Source: Prosopocoilus inquinatus
Taxonomy: Eukaryota > Arthropoda > Insecta > Coleoptera > Lucanidae
Length of the DNA: 64,000 nucleotides
Direction of reading: 5' to 3'
Assembly: GCA_036172665.1 (NCBI GenBank)
Contig: CM069872.1
Coordinates: 20,191,001-20,255,000, forward strand
In this document: positions 3,840 to 63,602 of the stretch, piece after piece
Layout of the letters: each line of letters begins with the position of its first letter
How positions within the stretch are numbered: the stretch's first letter is position 1
Notes under the pieces: generated by a model
What the model saw: only the letters and a program-made list of their open reading frames with translations
Databases searched by the model: none
What the model was told of the DNA's origin: nothing
Program-made: the position numbers and the translations under genes

Positions 3840-3905
3840 TCTTATCACAATTTGTTTATAATCGTAGATACGTATTTCGACAGCCACGCTATTATCTTCA
3901 TTTCT
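3840..3905 (-). mobile_element. Penelope-like element 3' fragment with hammerhead-like hairpin
   Basis: On the minus strand the stretch 3862-3901 reads TGAAGATAATAGC, GTG, GCTGTCGAAATACGTAT, C, TACG. It matches the conserved hairpin downstream of the PLE ORF at 48340-48382. Here the helix III palindrome ATACGTAT and C17 are preserved, but the first core C is A. It sits inside an arm of the foldback element 135-5076. Confidence 0.5.
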
Positions 3906-6071: not shown

Positions 6072-6340
6072 CAGCGTTTCCCAAACTTTTAGGTTTCGCG
6101 ACCCCCTTTTGAGCTGTGTTATGATTCACGCCCCCCCCCCTCCCGCGCCATCGAACCTGAAGACTGATGCTGATGTTTTCATAGTATTTTTTTTTAAATT
6201 TGAGACTCACGTTATGTATTTCATAAGTGACAGTAACAGCACATTTGTTTTATTGAAGTTTATTTGCATATACTGCAATGCATTGACCGTTTTTTTCTCA
6301 AATTAAACTTAAGGAATTTCTAACATCTTTCATTATGCTT
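6072..6340. mobile_element. Possible hAT-like element left end
   Basis: CAGCGTTTCCCAAACTTTT followed by GCGACCCCC resembles common hAT-superfamily termini. A GC-rich inverted counterpart (CGCCCCCCTTTGAAGA) occurs near 6842-6857, after the retrozyme insertion, but I cannot define a proper right end or target duplication. Confidence 0.35.
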
Positions 6341-6636
6341 TGACAGCAAGCATGGCCGCCTTGCATGGGGAACTTATTAGGAGCAAATCCCGCTTCAATT
6401 TGTCTACCCTACTGCAATGTCAGGTCAAAAAGCGATAGTAAGATGTCGCTATTTTATCTGTTCATCACTCTTACATCGCAAATGCGAATAAATTGGGCAA
6501 GTCGTTTTTGTTTGCAGCGGGAATGTCGAGCTACGTCTCTGCTGAAGAAGCCCCAAGCAGGGCTGAAACAGCTGTCCAGAGGCTGCTCGAGGTTCTCGCT
6601 GCAATCAAAAACGATTTGCACAAAATTTTTCTAAAG
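6325..6636 (+). mobile_element. Retrozyme-type repeat, single unit (about 310 bp)
   Basis: One full unit of the same repeat that forms the array at 31070-33190, running from ATCTTTCATTATGC to TTTTTCTAAA. The few bases before it (ATTTCTAAC) look like the end of a preceding unit, suggesting it derives from a longer tandem copy. It contains a complete hammerhead (6528-6588). The short reading frames across it are not conserved as proteins. Confidence 0.85.
6528..6588 (+). ncRNA. Type I hammerhead ribozyme (best-paired copy)
   Basis: All conserved parts are present. Helix I is CTCTG (6537-6541) with CAGAG (6577-6581), extended past an internal loop by GAGC (6528-6531) with GCTC (6585-6588). The core CTGAAGA is at 6542-6548. 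Helix II is AGCCC with GGGCT around the loop CAAGCA. GAA is followed by A-C, a short AGCT loop and G-T, then C at the cleavage site (GTC, 6574-6576). Compared with the array copies (TTCTG) helix I has a full C-G pair instead of G-U. Known hammerheads of this type have a very short helix III. Confidence 0.88.
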
Positions 6637-7027
6637 TCAATTTTATAATTAATAAATAAATTAAATATTTAAGAAACTATTCCTAGCATTCAAAATTAAG
6701 AATCTCCTTAGTTCCAATAAAATACAAGTTCAGTGACAACCTTTGACAATTAAGGACGACCAAAATTTATTGCTCGCGACTGCATGTACATGCAATCTCT
6801 TGTAAAAAATAATATGATACGTTTTTTATATATTCTGCTGCGCCCCCCTTTGAAGACTTTCGCGCCAAATATTGACTGAATTTCGGCCTAAGGGTACAAG
6901 CACAGTGGCAAGCGATTTTCTTTTTACGATTAATCGCGGACGACAATGTCGTAAGAGATAAGCGACATCTTGTTCGCCTTAAAACGTTGAATATTTACAC
7001 GTCGATGTGAACTAAATATAATTATAC

Positions 7028-7378: not shown

Positions 7379-7444
7379 GTGGTGTCAGGTGTGGGTTTGT
7401 GCAAATAAATAAACAATTTAGAGTAAACTAAATTTAATCAGATT

Positions 7445-8488
7445 ATGATAAGTACAGTATCAAAAAAAAAACAATGGCTACGAGAAGTGTTGCTGAAAAA
7501 CTTAAAAGTGGCCGAATTAAAAACCGAATTGGAAGAACGAGAGTTAGAAACCTGTGGCTTGAAAGGCGCACTTCAACAGCGTCTCCGATGCGATTTGTTG
7601 ACAGCTGGTGAAGATCCAGAGACGTTCCTATTCGAAATTTCGTATGGTTCCGTCGATTTTAATAAAATCTTGAAGCATGAATTTCGAGAACAATCAAGAA
7701 ATTTAGAGGAAAAGCTTCTAGAACAATCTGGAAATTTCAAGGACGAACTTCGAGAACAATCCAGAAATTTGGACGAAAAATTTCGAGAACAGTCTGGAAA
7801 TTTAGAGAAGCTTCAAGAACAATCCAGAAATTTAGAGGAGAAGCTTCTAGAACAATCTGTAAATTTCGACAAATTACAAAATAAATTGTTAGAACAATAT
7901 AGAGACTTAGACGAGAAATTTCCAGAGCAATCCAGAAATTTCGACGAGAAACTTCTAGAACAGTCCGGAAATTTGAAGGATGAATTTCTAGAGCAAACGA
8001 AAGGACTCGAAGATAAACTAGTGGTAAAAATATCGGAAGAAACAAGAAACCTGCAAGGAAATGTGGAGGAAATAATATTCCAGCAGGATAACAAAATCAA
8101 GAATCTGGAAAAAATCATGGTGGGGTTACGAGTGTTCGGGGATCAGCCACCAGTAGAAACACTAGAAAATAATGAAACCCAGGAATTGACTCCAGACCAG
8201 AAGACAAAAGCAAAGAATCTGATCGGCCGCTATCAAGATGTATTCGAGGTAGAAAATGGATCCAAGGGAAGAACTGATGTCGTGAAACACAAAATAGAGA
8301 CTGGAGAAGAAAGACCTATCCGTCAAGCTCCAAGGCGATTACCATTGGCGAAGCGTGAGGAAGCGGAACGCATTATTCGCGAGATGGAAAAGGATAATGT
8401 ATTAGTTGGAAAACTTAGTAAGGGATGTTTTAAACTATGTGTTCATATACAAGGCGTTCCATTTAATTTTTTTTTAGAAAAATTGTAA
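7445..8488 (+). pseudogene. Gag-like/pol fusion remnant of a Ty3/gypsy-like retrotransposon
   Basis: A 347-residue open frame. Residues about 20-50 (KVAELKTELEERELETCGLK) look like a SAP-type motif seen in some insect gag proteins. Residues about 75-215 are a long charged coiled coil built from repeats of the kind EQSRNLEEKLL. From about residue 240 the sequence changes to the region just before reverse transcriptase (DVFEVENG, then HKIETGEERPIRQAPRRLP and EEAERIIREMEKDNV). The gag nucleocapsid, protease and the rest of pol are missing, so the frame joins gag to the start of RT by an internal deletion. The last 30 or so codons read into an unrelated repeat starting near 8415. Confidence 0.72.
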
Positions 8489-18590: not shown

Positions 18591-21500
18591 TCACTCGACG
18601 TTCTCATTGCTGATGTCGTTCTGTCCATCTCCAGCTTCCCGCTTCATATTTTGTATCTGATTCTCCCCGTTCTGATCAAACGGATCACTGTGCAAGTTTT
18701 CACTTGATTGCGAGTTGCTTGTTTTCGTGAAGTCTTCCTTGATGGACGGGGCCTGGTCGTTGGTGTTTTCCTTCGCCTCAGAATGCTGGTCGCCCTTGAC
18801 TAAATGTGAAGCCACCAGTGGACCGCTACCGCCTTGTAAATTCGGCTTCCTTTGTTTATCGCCTGAAACAAGGATTTGTAAATTGAAATCAAATATAAAA
18901 ATTATCAGTTGTAATACGATGAGGTAGTCAAGGTTACGCCGATTATTTAATTTGATTAATTAAATATTCATTATTTGATTTGATTCATTAAATAGTCTTC
19001 GGAATACGATTCGTAGTCAACGTGCAGATCATTTTTGTGGTGATGCTACGAATAGTGTGTTCTTTTACTGTGTTCAAATATTTAAATCGTGGTTTAACCT
19101 TTTGCACGAACCCTGTCGTGAACGAACATATGTTTGATTCATATAATGGCGTATTAACAAATCGTAATGGCTTTTGCAAACAGGTAAAAAGGCCTGCCGG
19201 AAGTCTCACAGCCATTTGGCAAATTTCTGCATGCGGAAAGGAAATAATTTTGAAAACATTCGGTTTACGTGAGTTCATATTCATCTTCACGAAGTATTAA
19301 AAAAGAATCGATTTTACAAATTACAGATTCAATTAAATCGATTACTAAATTTACCCGTCAATGAACTTTTTAAACCCGCCTGGATTTATTAAAAAAATGT
19401 AACCTCACTCCAAGTAAATAATTACATTTTTAAGTATTTTCAAATTATAGGCCGACGATTATAATTACTGGACGAAAAATGCGCCTTAACATTGCGGATG
19501 AGTTAAATAATCACATCATCGTCATCCATCGTTTTATTTTTCACAAGTAATAAATAAATTGCGTTTCCATTTCTTAAGTGTGTTTTTACAACGCCGGCCG
19601 CCTCTTCGATTGACGCGCTTACGGTAGGGCAGTATTTAAATAAATGTAACATTTTTTTTAATATTTTTCTTATAAGCAGGACCCATACCACGCTTTACAG
19701 TCCATATAAAATTCATATTCTAACGGCCTGTATATTGTTTTTCCATTTTTTTTTTCATCTTGATGGAACCTTTCACCTTGCTCCTCACTCACCACACCAA
19801 AATTTTCTGGGATATAGTTCAAATGATAAATTAGAAAATGAATTTTTAAGTTCCTGTTACAATCCAAAATGGTCTCTTGGGTCATTACTTTTTTTGTCCA
19901 ACGTAAATTATAAGCCCGGAATACTTACAAATGAACATGGTATTTTTGACGCAGAAGCATTTTAGAAATGTTTAAATGGCCACTATTCTTTCAGCGACCG
20001 AATTTTATCCAACAGAACCTTTAAATTTTCGGATGTTTCCTATTAAAAAAAAAAATACACAAAGTTGGTGCCATAGCAACAAAACAAAAGAGAACACAGA
20101 GAAACTATGTTTGTCAAAGCATGCGTAGAAATACATCAAGAAATTTTTGTACGCGGGCTGCTGGAATATTTTCTGGAATCTAGTAGGTCTAGAATTATTA
20201 GCGTTTATCAATTGCCATAATTGAAAAATTTGACGTCTTTCGCCTATAATTCTATTGACAGTTCCTATCCAAGTGAACTAGTTTTGTTTGCACAGCATTT
20301 GAGAAAAAGTAATTTTGTGTAAACATGGAAATCTCGCGTGAAAATTTTCATGCCATGATTTTTTACGATTTCAAATGTGGTCTAACGCCGAAACAATGCC
20401 TCGGTAGGCTTCATTTGGCTTTTGGAGATGAAGCACCATCAAAGAGCAGCGTTTATAATTGGTTTGCCGAATTCCAGCGTGGACGTACCTCTCTCAGTGA
20501 CGGATTTCGTGAAGGTCGTCCATCAACATCTGTTGTTGCCACTAATGTAGATACTGTGCGTGAAATGCTTGAGCGAGATCGACATGTGACATACCGTGAG
20601 ATTCAAGCATCCTTACGCATTGACATGAAAGCAATACACCAGATTTTGCATAATCATTTGAACGTACGAAAGCTTTGCAGTCGTTGGATCCTACACAATT
20701 TAACAGAAGCGCAAAAGCAGAGTCGTGTCAAATGTTGCGAAGAAATGCTCAAGAAATTCAATGGAGGTCGTTCAAATTTAGTTTATAACATCGTTACTGG
20801 TGACGAAACGTGGATCTATTCGTACGAGCTGGAAAGTAAACAACAATCTACCGTTTGGGTATTTCAAAATGAACCAAAACCAACATAAGTTGTCCGTTCA
20901 CGCAGTGCTGCGAAGCAAATGATTGCCTGTTTCTTTGGTTTAACCGGATATGTAGCAACCGTGGCTTTAGAGGATCGAAAAACCGTGAATGCTGACTGGT
21001 ATACTACAATTTGTTTGCCGGAAGTCATCGATCAAATAAGAAGAAACAATCGAAATCGACGAATTATTCTCCATCATGACAACGCCAGCTCTCACTCAGC
21101 CCGTCAAACAGTTGATTTTTTGTCCAACAAAAATGTTGAATTAATGACTCGTTGTCCATATTCACCTGATTTATCACCTAATGATTTCTTTTCGTCCCCA
21201 AACATCAAAAATAAAATGCGTGGTGAGCGATTTTCGTCGGGTGAAGCAGCGGTTGAAACATTCCGGACACTGGTTTCTGAGGTACCATCTTTAGAGTGGA
21301 AAACGTGCTTTAGAAATTGGTTCGAGCGTATGCAAAAGTGTATTGACGTCAAAGGCGAATACTTCGAAAAACAATGATACCGTTTAACAAATTTCATATG
21401 CGTTTTTTCATACCGTTTCCAGAAACTTTTCCAGCAGCCCACATATCATACATTTTTCATAACTTTCCAAATAAAAAAGTTACAGCTATTATTTGATACT

Positions 21501-24500
21501 TCTGTTCCGCCCTGTATAAAGACCCCATACGTAACAAAAACTGTCAGGATTGTTGATACAGTTTGTACGGGATGAAATTGATGCAATTTTATCACTTTTA
21601 ATAGTTTTGAAAAAAGAAAACTACAGCGATCAGATGTTAATTTTTGATTAATTTGATTTAAATGTTAAAAATGTTGGTAAAGTAGGGACTATTTCTAGCA
21701 CCATCTATTTTGCGAATAGTATTTTAAACTATTTACAGATTTGTTAATGGTTTGTGACTCTTTTCTGAAAACGTCAATAAAAATTCAAACCCCAGATTTA
21801 TTTACCTGTGTAATCCGAGAACTTAAGTTCACTATAAGAACCGCTTACAGCTGAAATTAACTAATTTCAATGAAACGCCCTGCTTATGTTAACATATTTG
21901 AATGGCTCGTAAATTTCTGTTTCTAACAAATGCAACTTGTATTGGTCTGAAGCTTACGGTTTTTCGAGATATCTGCACTTACAGTTAGAACTACTGACAA
22001 GAACAATATTTCAAGAAAGTAAACAAAAAAGAAAGGGAACAATTACGTTTACCTGTTAAATCACAAGGAAATATTGTCATTTATAAATAATTCGAGAACT
22101 TAAGTTCACTATAAGAACTGCTTACAGCTGAAATTAACTAATTGCTAAAGTTCTAACAAAGAAATTCAAAGTGTAATTTTTATTTAATTAAACCTGAACT
22201 CTATCAATCCTTCAATTTATTTCCAACTATTGAGTATCTGCTAATAATTTCTACCCAATTTTTTGAAAAAAATGTATTTGGTAGAATTAAAAAAATAAGT
22301 AATACTACGGGCTAAAACATTTCCAATAACAAATCATTAGCGTTGTATATCGATTAGATGTTCGAAATAAATTGAACGATTGATAGAGTTCAAGTTTCAT
22401 TAAATGAAATGAGAACTTTAGCAATTACTTAATTTCAGCTGAAGGCAGTTCTTGTAGTGAACTTAAGTTCTCGGATTATTTATAAATGCCAATATTTCTT
22501 TGAGGTTTAACAGATAATCGTAATTGTGCCCTTTGTTTTTTGTTTATCTTCTTGAAATATTGTTCTTGTCAGTAGTTCTAACTGTAAGTGCAGATATCTC
22601 GAAAACCGTAAGCTTCAGACTAATACAAATGTGTTTGTATTTCATATCTAAGAACCAAAACAGAAAAAATATTGTATCAAATACACGTTTCATAAGACAT
22701 TTTGGCGGACTTGTCCACTTAGAAAACTCGTTTTCTAAAACCGGACTAAAATTCCGTCTTATGAAAACCTGTTCTTTAAAATACTATTAATTTAGCTAAA
22801 GAATGGTATGCATAATAACCATTTAATGTAGAAAAGAGACGTAAGAATTAGCTAAGACGATTACAAAAATTTAATTAAAAAAAATAACAGAAACAGTAAA
22901 ACAACTTTTTTATTCAATGAAAAAATTAAAGTTGTCTTTCCTGAATGGCTATGACCAGGGATAAGAATTCGGCCCACTTGCTCCGCGTACAGTACGAAAA
23001 TTTAGTATTCGGACTGTATTAGTCACCGCCCAGAGTAACTTCTGCGAAGTGCGAACGCTCGCACTGTAACCCTTCCCCTCGATAACATACGTCACTCAAT
23101 AGGAATTTAAATGGATCAGAGCCGCGGAAGGAGTAAATAGTACATTCGATGTAAAAAGTGTTCAGCACTAAATGGACCGAAATCTTTTCCCCGGCTATGA
23201 CTAACAGCGCGGCTGTAAAACTTGAGGACTTGCTTCAAATTCTTCTTGAAAAACAAATTGCAGGTTTTCGAGATTATCTGGCAAAGCTAGACAAAAACAG
23301 TTGCCGTTCGCTATAAAATTTCCCACATTATAAGGTCAAACCTCTGGCCGCCAGAAGGCGCGCTTTAAATTATTGTCTGCTATTACCGTGGCTTACCGGT
23401 TTAAAATCGGACAAGTCGTTCTGATTACGGTGGAGTTTCTCGAGCTATTCTTCTGCTGATGGGACCCCCAATTAGGGCCGAAATAGCGCTACACAGAGGC
23501 TGCTTGAGGGCCCCACTGCAATCTGAGCAGACTTGCTACAGCGTAAAATTACGATGACACGCGAATGTGTCCGCATTGGCCGCTTTTTGCATTATAGCTT
23601 ACCAGGCAGCAGTACAGTTGCCATTCGCTATAAAATTTCGCACAATATAAGGTCAAACTCCTGGTCGCCAAAGGGCGCGCCTTAAACTGTTGTCTACTAT
23701 TACCGGGGCTTACCGGTTTAAAACCGGACAAGCCGTTCTGATTACGGTGGAGTTTCTCGAGGTACTCTTATGCAGATGAGGCCCCAGTTAGGGCCGAAAT
23801 AGCGCTATATAGAGGAAGCTTGTGGGCCCCACTGCAATCTGAGCAGACTTACTACAGCGTAGAAAACAGCAAGTAAGATATTTGCAACTCATCCGACGTG
23901 TGGGGTCTGGTATTGTCATTTCATAAAATTAAGCTGTCTTCTGTTATAAGATATAACTTAAGCGATTAAGGTCACTTTTATAAAATATTTTAGGGTGGCC
24001 GGTTTTTTCTTTTTGCCAGTCAGCATATTTCTTTCAATCATTTCAACAGAAGAAGAAAGTGCAAGGAATAAGTTTTTTTACCTTTTCTCCACAGCGTAAT
24101 TTCCTGCTGTTTAAAATATCTTCTGTCTTCTGTGTCCATCAGAACTAAGTTCAGAAAATAACGCACAGAGAACTTTTTGTTGATGTCTCGCATGGTAGGT
24201 GTTAACTCATAACCGGCCAAGAAGACTCTTATTGGAATGCTTTCACCTGAAAATATGAAACACAGAAATAAATTTTTAAAGAAAAAAAAAACTAAACTAA
24301 ACTGGGAGCAACCTTTAATTCATAGAATTCGTACAATTAAATCAACGTGTTAAGAAAACAAATAACTTTCTAGGTATTTATGTTAAGTGACTTATTGGCT
24401 TAAAATTCTTTCAGCTAAGGATGTCTGAAGCCTCCTGAAGCCAATAATTACTTAAAATAAAAATCTAGAGAAAGTTATTTGTTGTTTTCTCAACACAGTA

Positions 24501-27164: not shown

Positions 27165-28130
27165 AGGTATATTCGTTTTAGAAATGCTGGGTTTGCCACA
27201 ATAGCGTCATCGTCAAGTAGCTGATGCCCATCTAGGTCAAGTTATGGTTGCATCAGAAATTGATCTAAAACGAATAGTTTGTGATGGGCAAGTTGTACCC
27301 AGAGAAAAGAAAAATGTTAAATCAACATAACTTTCGTTTGGGTACGTTCAATGCATTAATTTATTTAAAAGAAAAGCCATTATGTATTCAATTCAAGTAA
27401 AAAAAATGTTTGAATCAACAAGAAACTGCTTGAATTAATGTAAAGTGTGCATCATTCAAATAAATAAATGCATCGACTGTATTCAAACAAAGATTTTTCT
27501 GTGTGATGAAAACCGACCTTGCTGAAAAATAATTAAATTAAGGTTAAGTAAACAATACTTTGGTGTTGAAGCAACTAAACCCTACTCTGGAGTAGGTGCA
27601 CATTGCGTCAACACCAGCACTGCCGCAGTGGCAATTAAAACGAATATGCCAATGTCAAATACCGCATGCCGAAAATCTAAAACGAATACACATTTCGTTG
27701 ACGCAGGTGACTTGCGGCAACCTAAAGCCGACTACTCATTACGCGGTACTTGGCAAGTGAATTAACTTGGCAAGTACTCGGCGAGCATTTGTGCAAGTAA
27801 AAGTCGAACCGTACACATTATTAAGCCGGCTACTCATTACGCGGTACTTGGCAAGTGTCTTAAGTTGGCAAGTACTCGGCGAGTATTTGTGCAAGTAAAA
27901 GTCGAACCGTACACATTACTCGGCTACTTCTACATAGCCAGTCCGTTTAACACTTACCCATTTGACTTTGGATAGTTTACCGACAATGAACGGGAAGTAC
28001 AAGTAACGTGGCAAGTAGTGCCGAGTTGCACGCCGCGTCTTAATACACATTACTCGGTACTTGCTAAGTATTGTCAAGTACTTGCCAAGTACCGCGTAAT
28101 GAGTAGCCGGCTTCAGTAATCTAAAACGAA
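27165..28130. repeat. Cluster of small MITEs
   Basis: A short hairpin with ATTCGTTTTAGA / TCTAAAACGAAT ends spans about 27172-27280, and further TCTAAAACGAAT copies occur at 27677 and 28118. A second element has ends GCCGGCTACTCATTACGCG (left, 27824) and its inverse (right, to about 28112). Its left 98 bp are duplicated in tandem (27726-27823 and 27824-27921). Confidence 0.6.
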
Positions 28131-30567: not shown

Positions 30568-30626
30568 AATGGCGCCACTATTCTACGCGCGCTTTTTTAC
30601 GCGCCTTTTTAATTTAAATAATTCTT

Positions 30627-30763
30627 TAGGTTTTCTTCTCCATAAATTCATTTAAGTAATATGTTATATTCTGCAAAGACTCTGATATGCTGTAATATAC
30701 ATTACAAGTCTTTACAGAATATAATGTATTACCTAAATGAATGTATGGAGAAGAAAACCTAAA
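30627..30763. repeat. Hairpin repeat, about 57-bp arms
   Basis: Arms TTTAGGTTTTCTTCTCCATA... and its inverse ...GGAGAAGAAAACCTAAA enclose a loop of about 25 bp. A few mismatches only. Probably a small MITE. Confidence 0.65.
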
Positions 30764-31114
30764 GAAACGGAAAATCATGCTTATGATATATACTAGATTT
30801 TAAGCTAACAAAACAAACCACATATTATTGTCAAATTACTATATTTAACTGCAAACGTAACTGCAAGTAATAACACATTATTTGTACATTGTCATTCATG
30901 AAGTTCATAATTTATGGAAATGATTTCAAAATTGCAATTCAATACATTCTTTATCCGTACACATTATTTTTGACTTTAAGTGCGAATATCTTCAAAATTA
31001 CTGCAAATTAAACTTTTTTTTTAACAATTTTTATTCAGAATTCTCTACTTGACCACCTTTAAATTTTATTAGAAAAATTTCGTGCAAATCGTTTTTGATT
31101 GCAGCGAGAACCTC

Positions 31115-31175
31115 GAGCAGCCTCTGGACAGCTGTTTCAGCCCTGCTTGGGGCTTCTTCAGCAGAAACGTAGCTC
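31115..31175 (-). ncRNA. Hammerhead ribozyme, array minus unit 1
   Basis: On the minus strand: GAGC, TACGT, TTCTG, core CTGAAGA, helix II AGCCC/GGGCT with loop CAAGCA, GAAAC, AGCT, GTC, then CAGAG, GCT, GCTC. The cleavage site lies between 31127 and 31126. Helix I has one G-U pair. Confidence 0.88.
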
Positions 31176-31424
31176 GACATTCCCGCTGCAAACAAAAACG
31201 ACTTGCCCAATTTATTCGCATTTGCGATGTAAGAGTGATGAACAGATAAAATAGCGACATCTTACTATCGCTTTTTGACCTGACATTGCAGTAGGGTAAC
31301 AAATTGAAGCGGGATTTGCTCCTAATAAGTTCCCCATGCAAGGCGGCCATGCTTGCTGTCAAAGCATAATGAAAGATTTTAGAAAAATTTCGTGCAAATC
31401 GTTTTTGATTGCAGCGAGAACCTC

Positions 31425-31485
31425 GAGCAGCCTCTGGACAGCTGTTTCAGCCCTGCTTGGGGCTTCTTCAGCAGAAACGTAGCTC
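31425..31485 (-). ncRNA. Hammerhead ribozyme, array minus unit 2
   Basis: Same sequence as the ribozyme at 31115-31175, exactly 310 bp further on. All core bases are intact. Confidence 0.88.
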
Positions 31486-31734
31486 GACATTCCCGCTGCA
31501 AACAAAAACGACTTGCCCAATTTATTCGCATTTGCGATGTAAGAGTGATGAACAGATAAAATAGCGACATCTTACTATCGCTTTTTGACCTGACATTGCA
31601 GTAGGGTAACAAATTGAAGCGGGATTTGCTCCTAATAAGTTCCCCATGCAAGGCGGCCATGCTTGCTGTCAAAGCATAATGAAAGATTTTAGAAAAATTT
31701 CGTGCAAATCGTTTTTGATTGCAGCGAGAACCTC

Positions 31735-31795
31735 GAGCAGCCTCTGGACAGCTGTTTCAGCCCTGCTTGGGGCTTCTTCAGCAGAAACGTAGCTC
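31735..31795 (-). ncRNA. Hammerhead ribozyme, array minus unit 3
   Basis: Same sequence, again 310 bp further on. All core bases are intact. Confidence 0.88.
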
Positions 31796-32044
31796 GACAT
31801 TCCCGCTGCAAACAAAAACGACTTGCCCAATTTATTCGCATTTGCGATGTAAGAGTGATGAACAGATAAAATAGCGACATCTTACTATCGCTTTTTGACC
31901 TGACATTGCAGTAGGGTAACAAATTGAAGCGGGATTTGCTCCTAATAAGTTCCCCATGCAAGGCGGCCATGCTTGCTGTCAAAGCATAATGAAAGATTTT
32001 AGAAAAATTTCGTGCAAATCGTTTTTGATTGCAGCGAGAACCTC

Positions 32045-32105
32045 GAGCAGCCTCTGGACAGCTGTTTCAGCCCTGCTTGGGGCTTCTTCAGCAGAAACGT
32101 AGCTC
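32045..32105 (-). ncRNA. Hammerhead ribozyme, array minus unit 4
   Basis: Last minus-strand copy before the inversion junction at about 32227. All core bases are intact. Confidence 0.88.
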
Positions 32106-32327
32106 GACATTCCCGCTGCAAACAAAAACGACTTGCCCAATTTATTCGCATTTGCGATGTAAGAGTGATGAACAGATAAAATAGCGACATCTTACTATCG
32201 CTTTTTGACCTGACATTGCAGTAGGGTTCGCTTCAATTTGTTACCCTACTGCAATGTCAGGTCAAACATCTTACATCGCAAATGCGAATAAATTGGGCAA
32301 GTCGTTTTTGTTTGCAGCGGGAATGTC

Positions 32328-32388
32328 GAGCTACGTTTCTGCTGAAGAAGCCCCAAGCAGGGCTGAAACAGCTGTCCAGAGGCTGCTC
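32328..32388 (+). ncRNA. Hammerhead ribozyme, array plus unit 1
   Basis: First plus-strand copy, in the unit shortened by about 45 bp upstream. The ribozyme itself is complete and cleaves after GTC at 32374-32376. Confidence 0.88.
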
Positions 32389-32637
32389 GAGGTTCTCGCT
32401 GCAATCAAAAACGATTTGCACGAAATTTTTCTAAAATCTTTCATTATGCTTTGACAGCAAGCATGGCCGCCTTGCATGGGGAACTTATTAGGAGCAAATC
32501 CCGCTTCAATTTGTTACCCTACTGCAATGTCAGGTCAAAAAGCGATAGTAAGATGTCGCTATTTTATCTGTTCATCACTCTTACATCGCAAATGCGAATA
32601 AATTGGGCAAGTCGTTTTTGTTTGCAGCGGGAATGTC

Positions 32638-32698
32638 GAGCTACGTTTCTGCTGAAGAAGCCCCAAGCAGGGCTGAAACAGCTGTCCAGAGGCTGCTC
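32638..32698 (+). ncRNA. Hammerhead ribozyme, array plus unit 2
   Basis: 310 bp after the previous one, same sequence. Confidence 0.88.
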
Positions 32699-32947
32699 GA
32701 GGTTCTCGCTGCAATCAAAAACGATTTGCACGAAATTTTTCTAAAATCTTTCATTATGCTTTGACAGCAAGCATGGCCGCCTTGCATGGGGAACTTATTA
32801 GGAGCAAATCCCGCTTCAATTTGTTACCCTACTGCAATGTCAGGTCAAAAAGCGATAGTAAGATGTCGCTATTTTATCTGTTCATCACTCTTACATCGCA
32901 AATGCGAATAAATTGGGCAAGTCGTTTTTGTTTGCAGCGGGAATGTC

Positions 32948-33008
32948 GAGCTACGTTTCTGCTGAAGAAGCCCCAAGCAGGGCTGAAACAGCTGTCCAGA
33001 GGCTGCTC
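32948..33008 (+). ncRNA. Hammerhead ribozyme, array plus unit 3
   Basis: Last ribozyme of the array. The following partial unit stops at ATTTTATCTG (33190), before its ribozyme. Confidence 0.88.
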
Positions 33009-33202
33009 GAGGTTCTCGCTGCAATCAAAAACGATTTGCACGAAATTTTTCTAAAATCTTTCATTATGCTTTGACAGCAAGCATGGCCGCCTTGCATGGG
33101 GAACTTATTAGGAGCAAATCCCGCTTCAATTTGTTACCCTACTGCAATGTCAGGTCAAAAAGCGATAGTAAGATGTCGCTATTTTATCTGTTTAAATTTT
33201 AT

Positions 33203-42318: not shown

Positions 42319-42670
42319 CTTTTTGCTGCAAATCATTTCTGATCTGACATTGCAGTAGGATAACAAATTGAAGCGGATTTGCTACATAATAAGCTACCCC
42401 ATGCAAGGCGGCCATGCTTGCTGTCAAAGCATAATGAAAGTTTAAAAAAATTGCAAATCGTTTTTGATTGCAGTGAAAACCTCCAGCATCTCTGTACAGC
42501 TGTTTCAGCCATATTTGCAGCAATTTTTTTTAAAACTTTCGTTATGCTTTGACAGCAAGCATGGCCGCCTTGTATGGGGGACTTATTAGGAGCAAATTCG
42601 CTTCAATTTGTCTATCCTACTGAAATGTCAGGTCAAAAAGCGATCGTAAGATGTAGCTGTTTTATCTATT
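42319..42670. mobile_element. Diverged retrozyme copy, inverted type
   Basis: Starts on the minus strand (CTTTTTGCTGCAAATC) and ends on the plus strand (GTTTTATCTATT), with units joined in inverted orientation. Flanked by CAATAATAAAA (42308-42318) and CAATATTAAAA (42671-42681), an 11-bp duplication with one mismatch. The only ribozyme segment present lacks its CTGAAGA half (minus strand, CTGTACAGCTG near 42490-42510), so it is non-functional. Confidence 0.7.
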
Positions 42671-42784
42671 CAATATTAAAAAAAAATACATAAGATTATT
42701 AAAATAGATAAAAATTAATAAACTCTCATTGAAATTATAAAATCTCAGTCACTACTTAACTTTGACTTTATTATTATTATTCTA

Positions 42785-43055: not shown

Positions 43056-43600
43056 AGTAAAATGGGGAGGCAGAGACGTTCAGTTAATTGAACAAATAAG
43101 AAACGCATTGCTTTTAAATATTGATTGTAACTCAAGAACGCGTTCGCCGATTGTTTTTTTTTTTTTGGTAAGCGGCGTTGGGAAGCTGAGGAAAAGCTCT
43201 ATAAATCCCCCACTTAAATTGAACTCAAAAATTACTAGCGCGATCGCGAGGGGAGGCAGAGATGTTCTGTAAATTGAGCAAATAAAAAACGCGTCGCTTT
43301 TGAATTTTGAATGTAACTGAAGAACGCGTTCGTCGATTGTTTTTTGGTAAAAACCGTTGGAAAGTTGAGAAAACGCTCTATAAATCCCCTACTTAAATTG
43401 AATTAAAAAATTACAAACGCGATCGTAAGGGGAGGGAGAGACGTTCAGTTAATTAAAAAAATAAAAAACGCAGCGCTTTTGAATTTTGATTTTAATTCAA
43501 GAATGCGTTCGTAGATTTTTTTTTTTTGTAAAAAAAGGCGTTGGAAAGTCGAGAAATAGTCCAGTAAATTTCACGCATAAATTTAGTTTAAAAATTACAA
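43056..43600 (+). repeat. Three tandem copies of a repeat of about 180 bp
   Basis: Copies begin GGGGAGGCAGAGACGTTC at about 43062, 43251 and 43429. Each contains AAAAACGCRKCGCTTTTGAAT, AAGAACGCGTTCG, a poly-T run and CTCTATAAATCCCC. Copies differ by 10-20 percent by eye. Confidence 0.7.
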
Positions 43601-46190: not shown

Positions 46191-47007
46191 TCCATTACCC
46201 TGCAATCAATCATACAAAATAAATTTCTTTTAACTCTTAACAGAAACAAATCATTATAAACATTTTTGTTGCAAATCGTTTTTGATTGCCGTGAAAGCAT
46301 CGAGCAGCGTCTGTACAGCTGTTTCGGCCCTATTTGGAGCTTCTCCAGCAGAAACGTAGCTCGGGAGTTCCACTGCAAACCAAAACGATTCGACTAAGGA
46401 CAATCGCACTTGCGATGTAATAGTAATGAATAGCAAGGTTGGTAGAGCTGGAGTGTGTATTAGAAGGTTGCCGTGACAGGGCAGGGTAAAGAGAGAAAAA
46501 ACGTGAAAAATTCAATTGCGCATATTAACCAAAGAATTGATTCCATTTTTAGTGAATTAGATTAAGGACCGTTTTCATAATCAGACTTTAAATTTAAAGT
46601 TACTCTAACCTAAAAAAATACATTTGTTTCCCTGTACTTAAAGTGACTTTAAATTAAAGCGTCCTTAAAGTCCGATTACGAAGATAGCCGTAAGCTTTAG
46701 GAAACAGATTTTAACTCACTATGTACTTCACTGTGACGAATAAAACTTTCGTATGTTATGAACCGTCGGAAAAACCTTACAAATAAATTCTAACCAAACA
46801 ACACGGAAATACGGAAATAAATAGTCCAAAGACCCGAAAAAAGTTCGTATTCTAACGAATAAATAAGTATAAATTCCCTGTTATTTGATACCTAAAAGTC
46901 TTGAAAATAAACTATATATGTTGCTAATTATACGAGTGTCTAAAAAGGGAATCGCACCGTTTTCTTCCTTTTCGTATGTAAATTTAATACAATTAAATTC
47001 AAAATTT

Positions 47008-47807
47008 GATAGTATTAAATTTGCATATGAAAAGGAAGAAAACGGTGCGATTCCGTTTTTAGACACTCGTACAATTTATCGTAAAGATACAAATACAAGC
47101 CGGTTTATAATTAATGAATCTCAACATTCTGTACGACACAAACTCGCGAATCTAATTTTTTTAGTAAATAACTCTCTTTTCCACTTACTAAACCCCGGCA
47201 TGATAAAGAACTTAAATATATTAAAAATGTTGCGGTTCATAACGGTTATACCCCCCAAATAGTAGATAATGTGATTAGGAAGATTAGCTATAGGAAACAG
47301 GTCCAAAATTCTAGCACTTTAACAGCAACTTCATCTCTAGGAAAATTTGTTAAAATGCCTTTCGATCCGTTTTGCACCAAAGGTTTAAAACATATTTTTA
47401 AAACCCAAAACTTACGATTAGGTTTTTCAACTAACAACACCACAAAGAATTTATTGGGAAACCCGCAAGATAAAGTTGATGTTGAACAGAAATCTGGAAT
47501 TTATGAAATTAAGTGTAACAAATGTACTAGTAAATATATTGGACAAACAAAAAGAAATATATTAACACGTTTTAAAGAACATTTAAGTCACTATAGGTAC
47601 AATAGGTTTGAGAAATCAAGTGATGCACAACATATTTACAATACAGGACACAGTATTATCAAGGATAATTTAAAACTCATTAAGGAAGTTTCAAATAATA
47701 GGGAATTAAATGCTTACGAATGTATTTTTATTCGGAAAAATAAAAACAATTTAATGAATTCAGACAACGCACCCATACCTAATTCCGTATTATTTGAATT
47801 ACTCTAA
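47008..47807 (+). pseudogene. Penelope-like RT (C-terminal) plus GIY-YIG endonuclease fragment
   Basis: The forward frame starts inside the reverse transcriptase (IKFAYEKEENGAIPFLDTR, the last RT motif region of PLEs), followed by NTSRFIINESQHSVRHKLAN. It breaks near 47200 (stop and frame change) and resumes at 47271-47807. This second block ends in a GIY-YIG nuclease: GIYEIKCNKCTSKYIGQTKR, then RFKEHLSHY, SDAQHIYNTGHSI and the C-terminal NAYECIFIRKN. The paired GIY and YIG motifs, the downstream Arg and the Cys-x-x-Cys spacing (KCNKC) are visible. The first two thirds of the RT are absent, so this copy cannot be autonomous. A minus-strand duplicate of the RT piece (FEFNCIKFTYEKEENG) spans 46881-47066. 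Confidence 0.88.
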
Positions 47808-48339
47808 TTTGTAGGTTGTTATTTGACGAGGTTCATATTTAGATATACTATATGATTATTATCATTATTTTCTAGACCTTAACTCAAAAATTGGCCGCTA
47901 GATGTCGTACTTGTTATGTCAAAAATCATCCGCTAGATGTCGCTACCTGAATCATATATAAAGGAGTGTTGACAGTTAAGCGCATTTGCACTGGATATTT
48001 GATGAGGAGAGGATTCTCCGAGATAAAATTTTCCTAAAGTACTCTTAACTTGTGGAGTGTGGGTGTGATCTGTAGGTTGATTTTTGACGATTTATACATA
48101 ATATATATATTTTATTTTATTTTCAGGATTTTTAGATATCAAATGACAGTAAATTATATACTTATTTATTCGTTAGAATAAGAAGTTTTTTCGGGTCTTT
48201 CGACAATTTATTTCGGTATTTGTGTGTTGTTTGGTTAGAACTTATTTGTAAGGTTTCTCTGACGGTTAATTTTAGATCTTTAGATTTTATCAAGATGATT
48301 AGGTTGTTTTTAGATCTTTTTAGTGCTTTTAGTTGGTAG

Positions 48340-48382
48340 CGTACTGAAGATAGCAGCTTAGCTGCCGAAATACGTACCTACG
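48340..48382 (+). ncRNA. Hammerhead-like ribozyme motif of the Penelope-like element
   Basis: Helix I CGTA (48340-48343) with TACG (48379-48382); core CTGAAGA (48344-48350); helix II GCAGC, TTA, GCTGC (with TA and C unpaired beside it); GAA (48367-48369); helix III ATACGTAC; C at the cleavage position (48378). The only core deviation is C instead of U at position 16.1. The sister fragment on minus 3862-3901 has U there. PLEs are known to carry hammerheads in their repeated ends. Confidence 0.65.
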
Positions 48383-48841
48383 GATATAAAAATTATTGCT
48401 AAATGCAATATCAGTTTTACCAACCTTGATAAATAGTTTAAACAGCGACAACCTACGATCGCTTTTCGACCAAACATTGCATTAGGATTGACAAATTGAA
48501 GCCGGTTTACAAAATAATAAGTCATTCTGAGCTACGTTTCTGCCGAAGAAGCCTCAAATAGGGCTGAAACAGCTGTACAGAGGCTGCTCGAGGGTTTCAC
48601 TGCAATCAAAAACGATTTGCAACATTTTTTTTAAACTTTCATTATGCTTTGACAGCAAGCATGGCCGCCTTCCATGGGATGACTTATTATGTAGCAAACT
48701 GGCTTCAATTTGTCAATCCTTTTGCAATGTTAGGTCAAAAAACGATTGTAGGACGTCGCTGTTTAAACTATTCAGAATCATTGTACATATACAAAAGTAA
48801 TTGGAGTAAGCTCGATCATAATTGCAACTCAAGAGAGAGAG

Positions 48842-49184: not shown

Positions 49185-50466
49185 CGTGGGCTGCTGGAAA
49201 AGTTTCTGGAAACGGTATGAAAAAACGCGTATGAAATTTGTTAAACGGTATCATTGTTTTTCGAAGTATTCGCCTTTGACGTCAATACACTTTTGCATAC
49301 GCTCGAACCAATTTCTAAAGCACGTTTTCCACTCTAAAGATGGTACCTCAGAAACCAGTGTCCAGAATGTTTCAACCGCTGTTTCAGCCGACGAAAATCG
49401 CTCACCACGCATTTTATTTGGGAACAAAAAGAAATCATTAGGTGATAAATCAGGTGAATATGGACAATGAGTCATGAATTCAACATTTTTGTTGGACAAA
49501 AAATCAACTGTTTGACGGGCTGAGTGAGAGCTGGCGTTGTCATGATGGAGAATAATTCGTCGATTTCGATTGTTTCTTCTTATTTGATCGATGACTTCCG
49601 GCAAACAAATTGTAGTATACCAATCAGCATTCACGGTTTTTCGATCCTCTAAAGTCACGGTTGCTACATGTCCAGTTAAACCAAAGAAACAAGCAATCAT
49701 TTGCTTCGCAGCACTGCGTGAACGGGCAACTTTTGTTGGTTTTGGTTCATTTTGAAATATCCAAACGGTAGATTGTTGTTTATTTTCTGGCTCGTACGAA
49801 TAGATGCACGTTTCGTCACCAGTAACGATGTTATAAACTAAATTTGAACGACCTCCATTCAATTTCTTGAGCATTTCATCGCACCATTTGACACGACCCT
49901 GCTTTTGCGCTTCTGTTATATTGTGTGGGATCCAATGACTGCAAAATTTTCTTACGTTCAAATGATCATGCAAAATCTGGTGTATTGCTTTCATTCAATG
50001 CGTAAGGATGCTTGAATCTCACGGTATGTCACATGTCGATCTCGCTCAAGCATTTCACGCACAGCATCCACATTAGTGGCAACAACAGATGTTGATGGAC
50101 GACCTTCACGAAATTCATCACTGACAGAGGTACGTCTACGCTGGAATTCGGCAAACCAATTATAAACGCTGCTCTTTGATGGTACTTCATCTCCAAAAAC
50201 CAAATGAAGCCAATCGAGGCATTGTTTCGGCATTAGACCACATTTGAAATCGTAAAAAATCACGGCACGAAAATTTTCACGCGAGATTTCCATGTTTACA
50301 CAAAATTACTCTTTCTCAAATGCTATACAAACAAAACTAGTTCACTTGGATAGGAACTGTCAATAGAATTATATGCGAAAAACGTCAAATTTTTCAAATA
50401 TGACAGTTGATAAACGCTAACAATTCTAGACCTACTAGATTCCAGAAAATTTTCCACCAGCCCACG
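49185..50466 (-). mobile_element. Mariner transposon, copy 2
   Basis: TA at 49183-49184 and 50467-50468; inverted ends CGTGGGCTGCTGGAAAAGTT and, inverted, CGTGGGCTGGTGGAAAATTT. Length 1282 bp. Oriented opposite to copy 1. Confidence 0.93.
49251..50293 (-). pseudogene. Mariner transposase with one frameshift
   Basis: Minus-strand frames 49991-50293 and 49251-49994 are the two parts of one transposase, split by a 1-base deletion (ATTGAATG where copy 1 has ATTGACATG). The catalytic motifs TGDETC, HHDNASSHSA and YSPDLSPNDFFLFPN are present. It lacks the stop seen in copy 1. Confidence 0.92.
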
Positions 50467-55635: not shown

Positions 55636-56029
55636 TTAGTTATGACTAATAAATAATGGCTCAAGACAACTTAGAGCCAATAAATAAAAATTTGTTTTGT
55701 AAGTGTAAATTTCTCTTTGTAAATGTGTAAAACGTCATACCAAGAATTCTAATGCATTTGGCATATGTAAATAAAAAAATCATCATCATCATAGATATGT
55801 ATTTAAATATTATTTTTCGGTTTTTAAAATGAAATTGAAATTAATTTTAAAAAACCTCAGTTTGTTAAATGTTCATGGCACACTATTCAGGAATAATACT
55901 GAAAAGTGAAAAAAAATGATGCGTCAAAGAGAAAATCATATACAGTGTGTCCCACTTAAGGCGGTTTCTTTCATACCTCTCTAGTTATTAATTGAAATTA
56001 ACCTCCGCCCACAATAAGTTTTATATCCG

Positions 56030-56310
56030 TAGATACGTAATTCGGCAGCTAAGCTGCTGTTAAAATGTTAAAGCTAACAACAACCTAATTATCCTAAAAG
56101 ATATATATGTCTAAATGTAAGTAAATGTAAATTAATGTGTAAAAATTTTAAGTAAACTATATATGTTTATGTTAATGTATAAATCGGAAAAAAAAATGTG
56201 AACACCTAAAAGCAACTGTCAGAAAAACTTACAAATGAGAGCTAACCAAACAACACAGAAATGCGGAAATAAACAGTCCAAAGATGCGAAAAAACTTCTC
56301 AGTTTGTGTT
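56030..56310 (-). mobile_element. Penelope-like element 3' fragment
   Basis: Minus-strand match to the PLE 3' region: GCTTAGCTGCCGAATTACGTATCTACGG and the AACCAAACAACACAGAAATG stretch also found at 46790 and 48230. Its hammerhead-like hairpin is broken (GAATT for GAAAT). Confidence 0.65.
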
Positions 56311-57139
56311 AACCGTCTAATATCATTTAGATAATATTTATTGATTCTTCCTCTTCCGACAATTGAATGTTAGTTGTTAATATTAACAAATAAAAAAGAG
56401 TAGTTAGGAATAAATTTACTTATTAAGAAAGAAAAACATAATGAAATTGTATCAGTTATTTCTGACATATTTTAACTTTACTACAAGAAGGTATTAAGTA
56501 TAAGACATTACCGAAATCACCAGAAAAAAAAAATGCTATCGAATAGAATAATAAAAAGAAGCTGTTAATCAATAGCGAAATGTTGAGTATTTTCTCTTCA
56601 TAATTTTGTCCGTTTCAAGTTTAAAAATCTTTTTACTTACAAAAACTTTAAATTATGTAGTAGGTATTATATAAAATTTTTATATAAAATCTGAATTATT
56701 TAATCTTCAAATTAATGTCAACTATTAAGTGTGATACATCATTACAATCAGGAGAAGAAATGCTATCGAATAGAACAATAAAAAGACATACATTGTATTT
56801 AATAAATCGAAACTGATGGTGGTGGTGGAAAGACGAAACGTTTAACTTCAATTCTATTACTCCTATTCGATGCAGAATCAAAAAGTGCCTGCAGAAAGTT
56901 AAATCAGAATTTCAAAATTATGTATAATAAAAGAAACACAGAGAGAAAAAGAAAATCTTTTTTTTACATTTTTATTAATATCTCGAGAAGAAATAAGAAA
57001 AAATCATTCTGTTAATGAATACGAGTTAGACATTGATTCGTACAATTTTTCTTCCATTTAACCAAATTTGTATCTCTTACGGTTTAGGAGATCCCTTCAG
57101 TGCACACCCAATTTGAAAGAGCCGATTAACTGTTAGAAA

Positions 57140-57236
57140 ACCTTACAAATAAGAGCTAACCAAATAACACGGAAATACGGAAATAAATAGTCCAAAGACC
57201 CGTAAAAACTTCTTATTCTGACGAATAAATAAGTAT
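57140..57236 (-). mobile_element. Penelope-like element 3' fragment
   Basis: The AACCAAATAACACGGAAATACGG, CAAAGACCCG and GACGAATAAATAAGTATA runs match the inverted PLE end at 46790-46870. It abuts the foldback element at 57241. Confidence 0.65.
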
Positions 57237-57371
57237 AGAGGGAGATTCAGGCAACCCTTCCATTAAAAGTTTACGGACTTCTCCTATAATTTCTGTTTCA
57301 TAGTTTGCAGTTATAAGTTAACTTATTAGAAAAATTTTGTGCAAATCGTTTTTGATTGCAGTGAGAACCTC

Positions 57372-57432
57372 GAGCAGCCTCTGGACAGCTGTTTCAGCCC
57401 TGCTTGGGGCTTCTTCAGCAGAAACGTAGCTC
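57372..57432 (-). ncRNA. Hammerhead ribozyme
   Basis: Same 61-nt structure as the array copies: TTCTG/CAGAG helix I, CTGAAGA, AGCCC/GGGCT, GAAAC and GTC all present. Confidence 0.88.
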
Positions 57433-57683
57433 GAGATTCCCACTGCAGACCAAAAACGACTTTCCCAATTTATTCGCAATTGCGATGTAAGAGTGATGAA
57501 CATATAAAATAGCGACATCTTACTATCGCTTTTTGACCTAACATTGCAGTAGGATAGACAAATTGAAGCGGTATTTGCTCCTAATGAGTCCCCCATGCAA
57601 GGCGGCCATGCTTGCTGTCAAAGCATAATGAAAGATTTTAGAAAAATTTTGTGCAAATCGTTTTTGATTGCAGTGAGAACCTC

Positions 57684-57744
57684 GAGCAGCCTCTGGACAG
57701 CTGTTTCAGCCCTGCTTGGGGCTTCTTCAGCAGAAACGTAGCTC
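57684..57744 (-). ncRNA. Hammerhead ribozyme
   Basis: Second intact copy in this insertion; the unit is cut immediately after its outer GAGC segment by the strand switch. Confidence 0.88.
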
Positions 57745-59639
57745 AAAAACTTACTTACTTTACTCGTTAAAAACGATTTGCACAAAATTTTTCTAAAATC
57801 TTTCATTATGCTTTGACAGCAAGCATGGCCGCCTTGCATGGGGGACTCATTAGGAGCAAATCCCGCTTCAATTTGTCTATCCTACTGCAATGTTAGGTCA
57901 AAAAGCGATAGTAAGATGTCGCTATTTTATATGTTTATAAGTTAACGTTAAGGATCTATCAAAATATAATATTTTCAATTTTCGGACACTTCCGCTTATA
58001 CCGGAAGTTGCTGTCAACTTTCTCATTTTAAATGCAATACTCCATTTTTTAATGCATTTCTGAAATGCTCATGAAATTCTAAAAATATTTTGTGCAACAT
58101 GTGATACAAGAAAAATTAACCGTTTCCGAGGTATTTCTATTTTTTAAAAAGACCCTCAGACTTGCAGAACCTTGTTTATGATACTGCCATCTTTATACAA
58201 CAAAAACCACGATGTCAATTTTTCGCCTGTAGTAGGCTACAGTAACATTCCTTCAGATCATGTCCAATTTTTCACTTCGAACTAATTTCAACTGTCGAAA
58301 AGTTGTGTTTTTTAAAAGGAACGCCTAGTATATTTTTGTACCATGTGACTCAGGATTAAATGTTCTTTCATCCTGTTTTAGCATCTTTGATAGTTTACTC
58401 GTTATTGAAGATTTCTTTTTAAAATCTATTTTTTCCATTTTTCTGTATCGTTTTTAAATAGTGGACTATGGAAACTAGACGAACTATAATTTTTGAAATC
58501 ATCCGTCTAGTGGGAATTAAAAAATAAAATTTAATCGCTACGAAGAACCAAAAAATGAATATTCAAACACAAACATAGGAAATGTATTTGATGATAAAAA
58601 TGTCGATAAATCAAGAAGTTAATAAAAAAAATTGTTATATCAAGGAAAATATGATACTAATTAGACACAATAGAAAGTTATGTTATAACTTGGACATAAT
58701 ACAGAGTTATTACTAATAAATAATAGCTGAGGACAACTGAGAGCCAATATTATAACCAACAATTTGTGTATTATTTTTAATATTTTTGATTTATTTATTA
58801 GTTTTCATAAAAGTTTGTATTGTAAGTGTAAATTTTTCTTTGTAAATGTGTAAGAAGTCATACCAAGAATTCTAATTCTATTTGTCGGTTAAAAATGAAA
58901 TTGAAATTACAGTCAGAAATTAATTTAAAAAAACCTCAGTTTGTTAAATTTTCAGCATACTATTCAGGAATAATACTGTAAGTGAAAAAAATTGATGTGT
59001 CAAAAATAAAATCATGAATAAAAAGAGAAAGGGAAGAGAAGGGTGTAGAGAATGCTAAAACAGTTCGAAAGAACCATTTAATTCATAACATTCTCTTGAT
59101 ACAAAAATATACTGGGTGTTCTATTTAAATAACATGACTTTGACAGTTGAAATCCTTCTGAACAGACGTTACTTTTCAACCAGCCCGTAAACAATTTTGT
59201 ATGCAATTAGGTATGACCTGAAAGCCTATGAGTAGAACCTACTACAGGTCAAAAATGGAAATTATTATTAAAATATTTTTTAATTTCTTTCTTTTTACGC
59301 CTGCCCTATAGTAAAGAAAATAAGTTATGTTGAACTTTTGCAGAAACCACAATCGTGCACCACCATAAAATCTATTTTTAAAGATTAACTATGTACCTTT
59401 TTTAATCAAATTGAATTTCTGCATTTTATTTTTTTTTATTCTTTATGCATTTTATGGTATGACTGGTATGACCTGTAAAATTTTACAGGCTTGTAATTTC
59501 CATTTGGTTTTTTAACTTTTTTTTTATTAAAACCGAAAATATCATCGAAACGCATTCAGAATGTCATACTAATTATGTCTCTGAAATATTTTCTTCCAAA
59601 GCCTAATATTTTTTTTATTATTTGGTATGTAAAACTTGG

Positions 59640-60640: not shown

Positions 60641-60886
60641 AGAACAATGTCGATCATCTTCATTCCTATCTTGTGTAATTGTGACACGTTTATTTTGATG
60701 ATTCACAGTTCTCTTAGCTCAAAATAAACAAAGAATTAAACAAATACATTCTAGATTAATATTTGACGGAAAATTCAATACAATTACCAGTTTTTAGAAT
60801 TTAAGATCATCAAAAAACATCAAAAAAATTATGTGTAAACAAATTCCGGAAACTTTTATGACTCCCTGTATAACAACAATTTTATT

Positions 60887-61207: not shown

Positions 61208-61493
61208 AATTTTATTCATTTAATTACCTCGTTTTGTATTTTGTATGTTAATAATTTCTTCAGTATTCCGCAATATTAAGTCATTTTTACGGTCTTAAAA
61301 AGTAATTATTAATTTCTGACCCTATATTGTATAATGAAAAAAGTCTTATTTTGGCCTTCTTACTTGCCCTAGAAATTTGGCAAACGAATTTTTCAACACC
61401 CTGTAGCGCATTTAAAATTCTTTGCCGACCGTTTATAAATTTCAATTATGTAGTTTTCTCGAAGATTTGCCTAGTTGGGTCCATATGACACTG

Positions 61494-63601: not shown

Positions 63602-63602
63602 T

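Follow-up and report, generated by a model that had tools for sequence, protein, structure and literature searches.

A retrozyme-like family of 310-bp repeats with hammerhead motifs and head-to-head insertions in the beetle Prosopocoilus inquinatus

How does a small RNA with a self-cutting ribozyme motif find its way back into a chromosome? This question is raised by a 64,000-nt stretch of the genome of the beetle Prosopocoilus inquinatus (assembly GCA_036172665.1, contig CM069872.1, positions 20,191,001 to 20,255,000 of the forward strand; hereafter, the window), which contains an inverted array of 310-bp units with hammerhead motifs. A first-pass annotation, made from the letters alone, had placed a retrozyme array with seven intact hammerhead ribozymes at 31070-33190. 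We found that this array, designated insertion B, has the appearance of a young insertion by a small mobile element of animals whose RNA bears a self-cutting ribozyme motif, and that it is one of several insertions of the same family. The anatomy of the copies, with mirror-image pairs and two shared end sites, suggests a route by which circular RNA could return into chromosomes.

The inverted array and its hammerhead motifs

Insertion B consists of two arms. The left arm (31070-32227, minus strand) contains 3.7 antisense units with four intact hammerhead motifs, and the right arm (32269-33192, plus strand) contains 3.0 sense units with three. The unit was recovered in two tandem-repeat (TRF) rows with a period of 310 and 100% matches (31069-32227, 3.7 copies; 32269-33192, 3.0 copies), and the arms are reverse complements of each other with 100% identity over 924 nt, in agreement with the earlier statements that the units look identical over 310 bp and that the array is inverted, with motifs on both strands. 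The arms meet at an inner head-to-head junction (32228-32268), where the right arm opens with unit positions 126-163 and then skips to 203. Counted in laps of the unit, the left arm comprises about 3.7 and the right arm about 3.2, with zero substitutions and a single skip of 39 nt by the inner junction. The array is flanked by a 12-bp target-site duplication, TTTAAATTTTAT, with its left copy at 31058-31069 and its right copy at 33191-33202, and the annotated region is exactly the stretch between these two copies. The earlier account had recognized the inverted array, but it had overlooked the duplication, six further insertions, and the presence of an inversion in five of the seven. Because array B is identical throughout, the family has probably been mobile recently. 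The unit has a GC content of 44%, and no coding function was seen in a check limited to reading-frame lengths. When 32377-32686 was read as a 310-nt circle, stop-free runs of up to 125 codons were present (310 is not divisible by three). A short way to the left of the array lies an inverted repeat of 60 bp (30622-30766, 92% complementary, spacer of 25 nt).

A type I hammerhead is characterized by the sequences CUGANGA and GAA, an A15.1-U16.1 pair, H17, and three surrounding helices, of which helix I is open-ended. In array B, the motif CTGAAGA-AGCCC-CAAGCA-GGGCT-GAA-AC-AGCT-GT-C^CAGAG was found seven times. Read as RNA, the unit contains stem I (UUCUG/CAGAG), CUGAAGA, stem II (AGCCC-CAAGCA-GGGCU), GAA, stem III (AC-AGCU-GU), and C17, with the predicted cut before CAGAG. 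The four motifs of the left arm are located at 31122-31161, 31432-31471, 31742-31781, and 32052-32091 (minus strand) and the three of the right arm at 32342-32381, 32652-32691, and 32962-33001 (plus strand); for the first of the latter, chosen as representative, cleavage is predicted after 32376. A generic type I hammerhead descriptor identified 10 intact motifs in the window, i.e. the seven of array B, one at 6542, and two at 57379-57730, and it had no match on either strand of 60 first-order Markov sequences of window length. Judged by this descriptor and by the Rfam model RF00163 (Hammerhead_1), in whose alignment no non-standard pair was marked, the motif has the sequence properties of a type I hammerhead. 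As sequence, the seven hammerhead motifs, their assignment to type I, and the retrozyme-like nature of the unit were correctly annotated.

Invertebrate hammerheads are described as having a stem III of 2 bp with a tetraloop, and the motif of array B is alike (PMC7229834). A contact between the internal loop of helix I and the CAAGCA loop on helix II is at most plausible. Viral and prokaryote sequence collections were searched with exact and degenerate hammerhead patterns and one exact unit stretch, which yielded no match in the viral records, and the degenerate pattern yielded none in the prokaryote records; because the collections hold viral and prokaryote records, this blank says little about animals. 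A 3-kb Rfam scan also returned microRNA rows (MIR169_2, mir-1000, mir-17, and others), which were rejected: all were below the gathering threshold, and the best of them span the inverted junction and were judged to be the fold-back scored as a hairpin.

Seven insertions and their ends

A BLAST search with the unit, combined with end mapping, yielded seven insertions of the 310-bp family within the window (A, B, C, D, F, GE, and H). Five of these (B, C, D, F, and GE) are inverted, all of them head-to-head, and A and H are uninverted. With unit coordinate 1 defined as the first base past the predicted cleavage, the left arm of B has its outer end at about unit position 58 (alpha) and the right arm at about 196 (beta), and these two positions recur in other copies. 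Insertion A (6317-6638, plus strand) is a lone sense copy that covers 321 positions of the 310-nt unit, with an intact hammerhead at 6542-6581 and its 3' end at alpha. Insertion C (57323-57934) comprises a minus arm (57326-57744) with two intact hammerheads and a plus arm (57769-57938 by alignment), ends at alpha and beta, and is flanked by the duplication TTATAAGTTAAC (57311-57322 and 57935-57946); the left duplication is separated from the unit by three bases that fit neither of them. In insertion D (60887-61207; minus arm 60887-60936, plus arm 60932-61207), the ends are beta and alpha, the 9-bp duplication is AATTTTATT (60878-60886 and 61208-61216), and the hammerhead is changed at the cleavage site (GTA GAGAG), so that it was excluded from the intact count.

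The remaining insertions are more decayed or less complete. Insertion GE (46254-48774) is an older head-to-head copy with mutated hammerhead cores that consists of 46254-46433 and 48427-48508 (minus) and 48529-48774 (plus), has alpha and beta ends, and is flanked by the 7-bp duplication AATCATT (46249-46255 and 48776-48782). It is interrupted by a later insert of about 2 kb, and its pieces G and E were counted as one insertion because, by eye, the unit position at which G breaks off nearly adjoins the one at which E continues on the other side of this insert. Insertion F (42336-42672; minus arm 42336-42510, plus arm 42513-42672) contains an incomplete hammerhead and ends at unit position 165 on the left and at beta on the right, while H (23404-23523, plus strand) is an old 120-bp fragment round a decayed hammerhead. 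Apart from B, only C among the other six contains more than one intact hammerhead motif (1.3 laps). The young copies A, B, and C have the loop II sequence CAAGCA and the cleavage triplet GTC; the older E (48529-48774) and G (46254-46433) have CAAATA and GTA, and F (42336-42510) has GTA, with loop II at the inversion junction. A subfamily switch within the ribozyme between the older and the young copies is possible from these differences.

In all five inverted insertions, the left arm is antisense and the right arm is sense, such that the sense 3' ends face outward. This order is the expected outcome if the two 3' ends left by a double-strand cut both prime on one and the same sense RNA. The outer ends, in unit coordinates, are 58/196 for B, 58/196 for C, 196/60 for D, 58/198 for GE, and 165/198 for F, and the 3' end of A is at 60-62. 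After hand trimming, 10 of 11 arms fall within two 5-nt windows at alpha and beta, which was matched by none of 20000 random sets; untrimmed, 9 of 11 do so (0 of 5000 random sets). Trimming was applied where alignments enter the duplication (C+ and D- from 199 to 196, D+ from 69 to 60), and the end of A was shifted past a mismatch, from 62 to 60. The untrimmed set has B- entered as 58 from BLAST, as the end-mapping aligner stopped that arm at 310, and the inner end of B+ was likewise entered as 126 from BLAST, whereas the aligner went no further than 203; the outer ends considered do not include H or the inner piece E-. The inner (5') ends, by contrast, are dispersed, and the best pair of windows captures 3 of the 11, which is the chance level. 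Recurrent 3' ends together with scattered 5' ends point to reverse transcription from defined start sites. Either site can be used on either side, alpha being on the left in B, C, and GE and on the right in D.

Target-site duplications were found for four of the five inverted insertions, with lengths of 12 bp (B), 12 bp (C), 9 bp (D), and 7 bp (GE). Of 400 pairs of positions drawn at random from the window, none reached 9 bp or more and five reached 7 bp, and for the latter reason the duplication of GE is the weakest. Two further interpretations of the ends were rejected. A DNA transposon with terminal inverted repeats would have one repeated end, whereas each of B, C, D, and GE has its outer ends at two distinct unit positions, and termination by RNA polymerase III at a T run near alpha does not agree with ends that fall 3-6 nt beyond the run.

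A possible route from RNA to chromosome

At the level of the DNA, the hammerhead motifs, the unit, the head-to-head rule, the duplications, the recurrent 3' and scattered 5' ends, and the multi-lap arms are demonstrated. From these features, we think it probable that the copies belong to a non-autonomous family of animal retrozymes without long terminal repeats (LTRs), that their mobilisation is of the Penelope type, and that an RNA circle is reverse-transcribed at two internal starts from both cut strands. Tandem 310-bp units would be transcribed, the type I hammerheads would presumably cut the RNA into 310-nt monomers, and a host ligase would close these monomers into putative circles. A Penelope-type reverse transcriptase/endonuclease would then cleave both strands of an AT-rich target, and both target 3' ends would prime on the circle, one per start site (about 58 and about 196), at positions on either side of the hammerhead rod's base. 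The polymerase may circle the template several times, and joining of the two complementary DNA (cDNA) heads would leave a head-to-head array between target-site duplications. More tentatively, the circle might be a built-in double-priming template, on which facing start sites let a dimeric Penelope-type enzyme prime both strands and paste a mirror-image multi-lap array. If this were true, retrozymes would imitate the start module of Penelope at the RNA level and would not be casual passengers. The two recurrent 3' ends, the scattered 5' ends, and the head-to-head rule make the return from circle to DNA directly testable, and the beetle host could serve as a test animal.

The family shares many properties with the non-LTR retrozymes of metazoa, among whose named hosts are insects (PMC7229834). 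These include a type I hammerhead, small tandem repeats with a unit within 170-400 nt, a GC content below 50%, the lack of an LTR, duplications of more than 4 bp, and a predicted circle that is highly self-paired. Multimers of a 150-450 bp unit with a type I hammerhead, a duplication of more than 4 bp, and a self-paired circle (predicted) were all found here. In the same source, retrozymes are described as tandem copies, whereas the copies of the present family are head-to-head with two recurrent 3' ends; an RNA circle is proposed there as the template for tandem cDNA, and Penelope-like elements are put forward, as a proposal only, as a strong candidate for the mobiliser. With Penelope-like elements, the family has in common head-to-head copies, short duplications, an AT-rich target, two internal starts, and an association with hammerheads (PMC11167929, PMC3846280). 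In work on a Penelope-like protein, AT-rich DNA was cut and extended on both strands, apparently without distinction between them, and reverse transcription began at two internal sites that bound the known 'tail' (PMC11167929). Penelope copies have head-to-head pseudo-LTRs, with examples of 8-, 9-, and 10-bp duplications (PMC3846280). The window likewise contains head-to-head copies with short duplications and, as inferred from the ends, two recurrent start sites. In contrast to Penelope-like elements, which encode their own reverse transcriptase and endonuclease, the 310-bp unit has no apparent coding function by frame length.

The word 'inverted' is absent from the main text of PMC7229834 and is used in other senses only in PMC7761336, PMC11722881, PMC4918200, and PMC6431247. 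Inverted retrozyme insertions were not reported in the titles and abstract openings of the literature matches listed, a scope that lies outside subscription papers and Repbase. As far as can be told, the family is a new one among retrozymes of a known kind, and its insertion anatomy is apparently undescribed.

Besides the arms of B, more than one lap is present in insertion A and in the minus arm of C (417 positions). The arms of C have six common substitutions relative to B and one inserted base, with two differences between them, and because the substitutions are common to both, one RNA lineage would have templated both arms. The E arms have nine common substitutions and 10 differences, the D arms one and two, and the F arms two and 10. 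From these comparisons, a common origin of both arms appears clear for C, and for both E arms it is supported by nearest identity. Arms of more than one lap would be explained by a circular template; a multimeric transcript that had stayed uncut is possible as well, but would be less natural because the ribozyme motifs are intact.

The folding energy predicted for the 310-nt circle was -117.1 kcal/mol, compared with -76.5 kcal/mol (standard deviation (sd) 4.7) for 100 dinucleotide shuffles (z -8.7), and that of the antisense circle was -93.7 kcal/mol. The predicted shape is a long rod with the hammerhead at its tip and with alpha and beta on facing sides of the rod base. The mean unpaired probability is predicted to be 0.77 at alpha (55-62) and 0.67 at beta (193-200), compared with 0.34 for the whole circle; the predicted openness of the two sites is suggestive, not strong. 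In diverged copies, pairing is kept in 40 of the 78 pair cells that changed (51%), compared with 42.7% (sd 2.6) under a null of column reassignment, in which 1 of 2000 sets reached 40, and eight double changes fell in pairs where 2.4 were expected (4 of 2000 reached 8). This covariation represents few independent events, because the double changes fall in four pairs, one of them common to C, D, G, and H.

Several observations weigh against this account, beginning with the ribozyme itself. The covariance-model check proposed in the first-pass annotation did return a hit at these coordinates, with RF00163 matching a 101-nt stretch round one copy from end to end (model positions 1-45 of 45, 23.8 bits, E 4e-4, the E-value referring to a stretch that was chosen by us). 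This score is below the curated gathering cut-off of 34 bits, and the whole 64 kb had no Rfam match at the gathering threshold; at the E-value threshold, the 3-kb scan gave a single hammerhead row, HH9, for one copy (14.5 bits, E 8.4). The older copy E, which shares the loop II sequence CAAAUA with the model, reached 17.4 bits against the same cut-off, and the young copies differ from the model in their CAAGCA loop and in an A-U pair at the base of stem II. This closing pair, at 10.1-11.1, is usually G-C in hammerheads. In a nearest-neighbour model, which gives the catalytic core no energy credit, pairing of the core (GCUG/CAGC) was favoured over the hammerhead fold by 6 kcal/mol. Windows of 8 nt at least as open as the start sites account for 3.9% in the case of alpha and for as many as 11% in that of beta, the predicted unpaired probability at the alpha junction 58/59 is just 0.57/0.48, and the substitution rates of paired (8.0%) and unpaired (9.1%) positions are nearly alike.

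The insertions and the presumed enzyme contribute further points of this kind. The sample is one 64-kb window. Within it, no clear target-site duplication was found for A, F, and H, which counts in the cases of A and F; the left end of F (unit 165) is off-site; and arms cluster by element for C and, by nearest identity, for E, although the E arms differ at 10 positions, as do the F arms, while those of D show too few variants to tell. The start sites are about 140-170 nt apart on the predicted circle, where they face each other at the rod base, whereas the Penelope-like tail is 30-40 bp in a linear RNA (PMC11167929). Moreover, hammerhead mutants had no effect on Penelope-like insertion and uncut linear RNA was suggested to be the main substrate, so that this source gives no support for the use of a circle (PMC11167929). 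In the window, no intact Penelope-type gene was found, only a relic with a GIY-YIG frame, described below, and the match of this frame (23.0 bits) exceeds the Pfam cut-off of 22.6 by 0.4 bits.

Three other explanations were considered. The same retrozyme might have been mobilised by a long interspersed nuclear element (LINE) via ordinary twin priming, which would make use of the RNA 3' end and an arbitrary internal site. Twin-priming products are head-to-head. They are inverted copies with flanking target-site duplications (PMC2837659), the duplications of 7-12 bp fit a LINE equally well, and a likeness to LINE insertions has been noted for retrozyme repeats of the sea anemone, whose duplications measure 15 bp (PMC4918200). 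However, one fixed and one variable outer site would be expected from this mechanism, whereas both sites recur in the trimmed as well as in the untrimmed set (10/11 and 9/11) and either can be found on either side. In addition, no long poly(A) or simple-repeat tail was seen by eye, and we therefore regard LINE mobilisation as unlikely. Secondly, head-to-head copies could result from self-priming of an antisense transcript, which would yield a hairpin cDNA, an origin put forward for the Penelope elements of rotifers on the basis of junction palindromes (PMC3846280). The inner arms of B (126/140) and D (96/147) do overlap in unit coordinates; yet the junctions of C (31/262), F (38/295), and GE (121/262) join distant positions, C has 24 extra bases at its junction, and self-priming gives no reason to expect two recurrent outer ends, which makes this origin very unlikely. 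An ordinary satellite array that arose through unequal exchange, or the misassembly of an inverted repeat, could account for the perfect identity of units and arms, and satellites with hammerheads are known (PMC7229834), but such an origin is hardly credible given the target-site duplications at B, C, D, and GE and the dispersed, unequally diverged insertions, which share their polarity and most of their ends.

The Penelope-type relic and neighbouring features

If the family is a retrozyme that returns to DNA through both cut strands, as we prefer, a Penelope-type enzyme would be its most likely mobiliser. A possible, not intact, relative of such an enzyme may be represented by the relic inserted into GE (46434-48427), which contains the GIY-YIG frame (47172-47807). 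The insert ends in CAAGGTTGGTA...TACCAACCTTG, ends that we take to be hAT-like, and is flanked by a near 8-bp duplication (ATGAATAG/ATAAATAG). The relic is itself head-to-head, with a palindrome at 46926-47076 and with 46758-46914 matching 48113-48270. A comparison of the GIY-YIG frame with solved structures gave no convincing relative (best E 0.23). A hammerhead-like motif, CTGAAGA...GAAATACGTACC, is present in the relic at about 48344; it gave no Rfam hammerhead row and is left unproven. Further fragments of the relic were observed at 56012-56299, 57125-57237, 63600-63730, and 3855-3900. By eye, stops in the relic copies seem to recur at two places about 127 nt apart that flank the hammerhead-like motif, and several of the fragments end at the same two places.

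The window contains other repeats as well. Mariner transposase copies are located at 20313-21377 (plus strand), with an in-frame stop, and at 49251-50305 (minus strand), in two overlapping frames. Tandem repeats at 27725-27918 (98 bp, 2.0 copies, 94%) and 43064-43524 (179 bp, 2.5 copies, 82%) had no hammerhead match. The window also codes for Vps26, an MFS transporter, and a peptidase M16, which, like the mariner copies, suit an animal nuclear genome, and a SAP-domain frame (7427-8485) carries an internal repeat of 33/66 bp (7679-7996).

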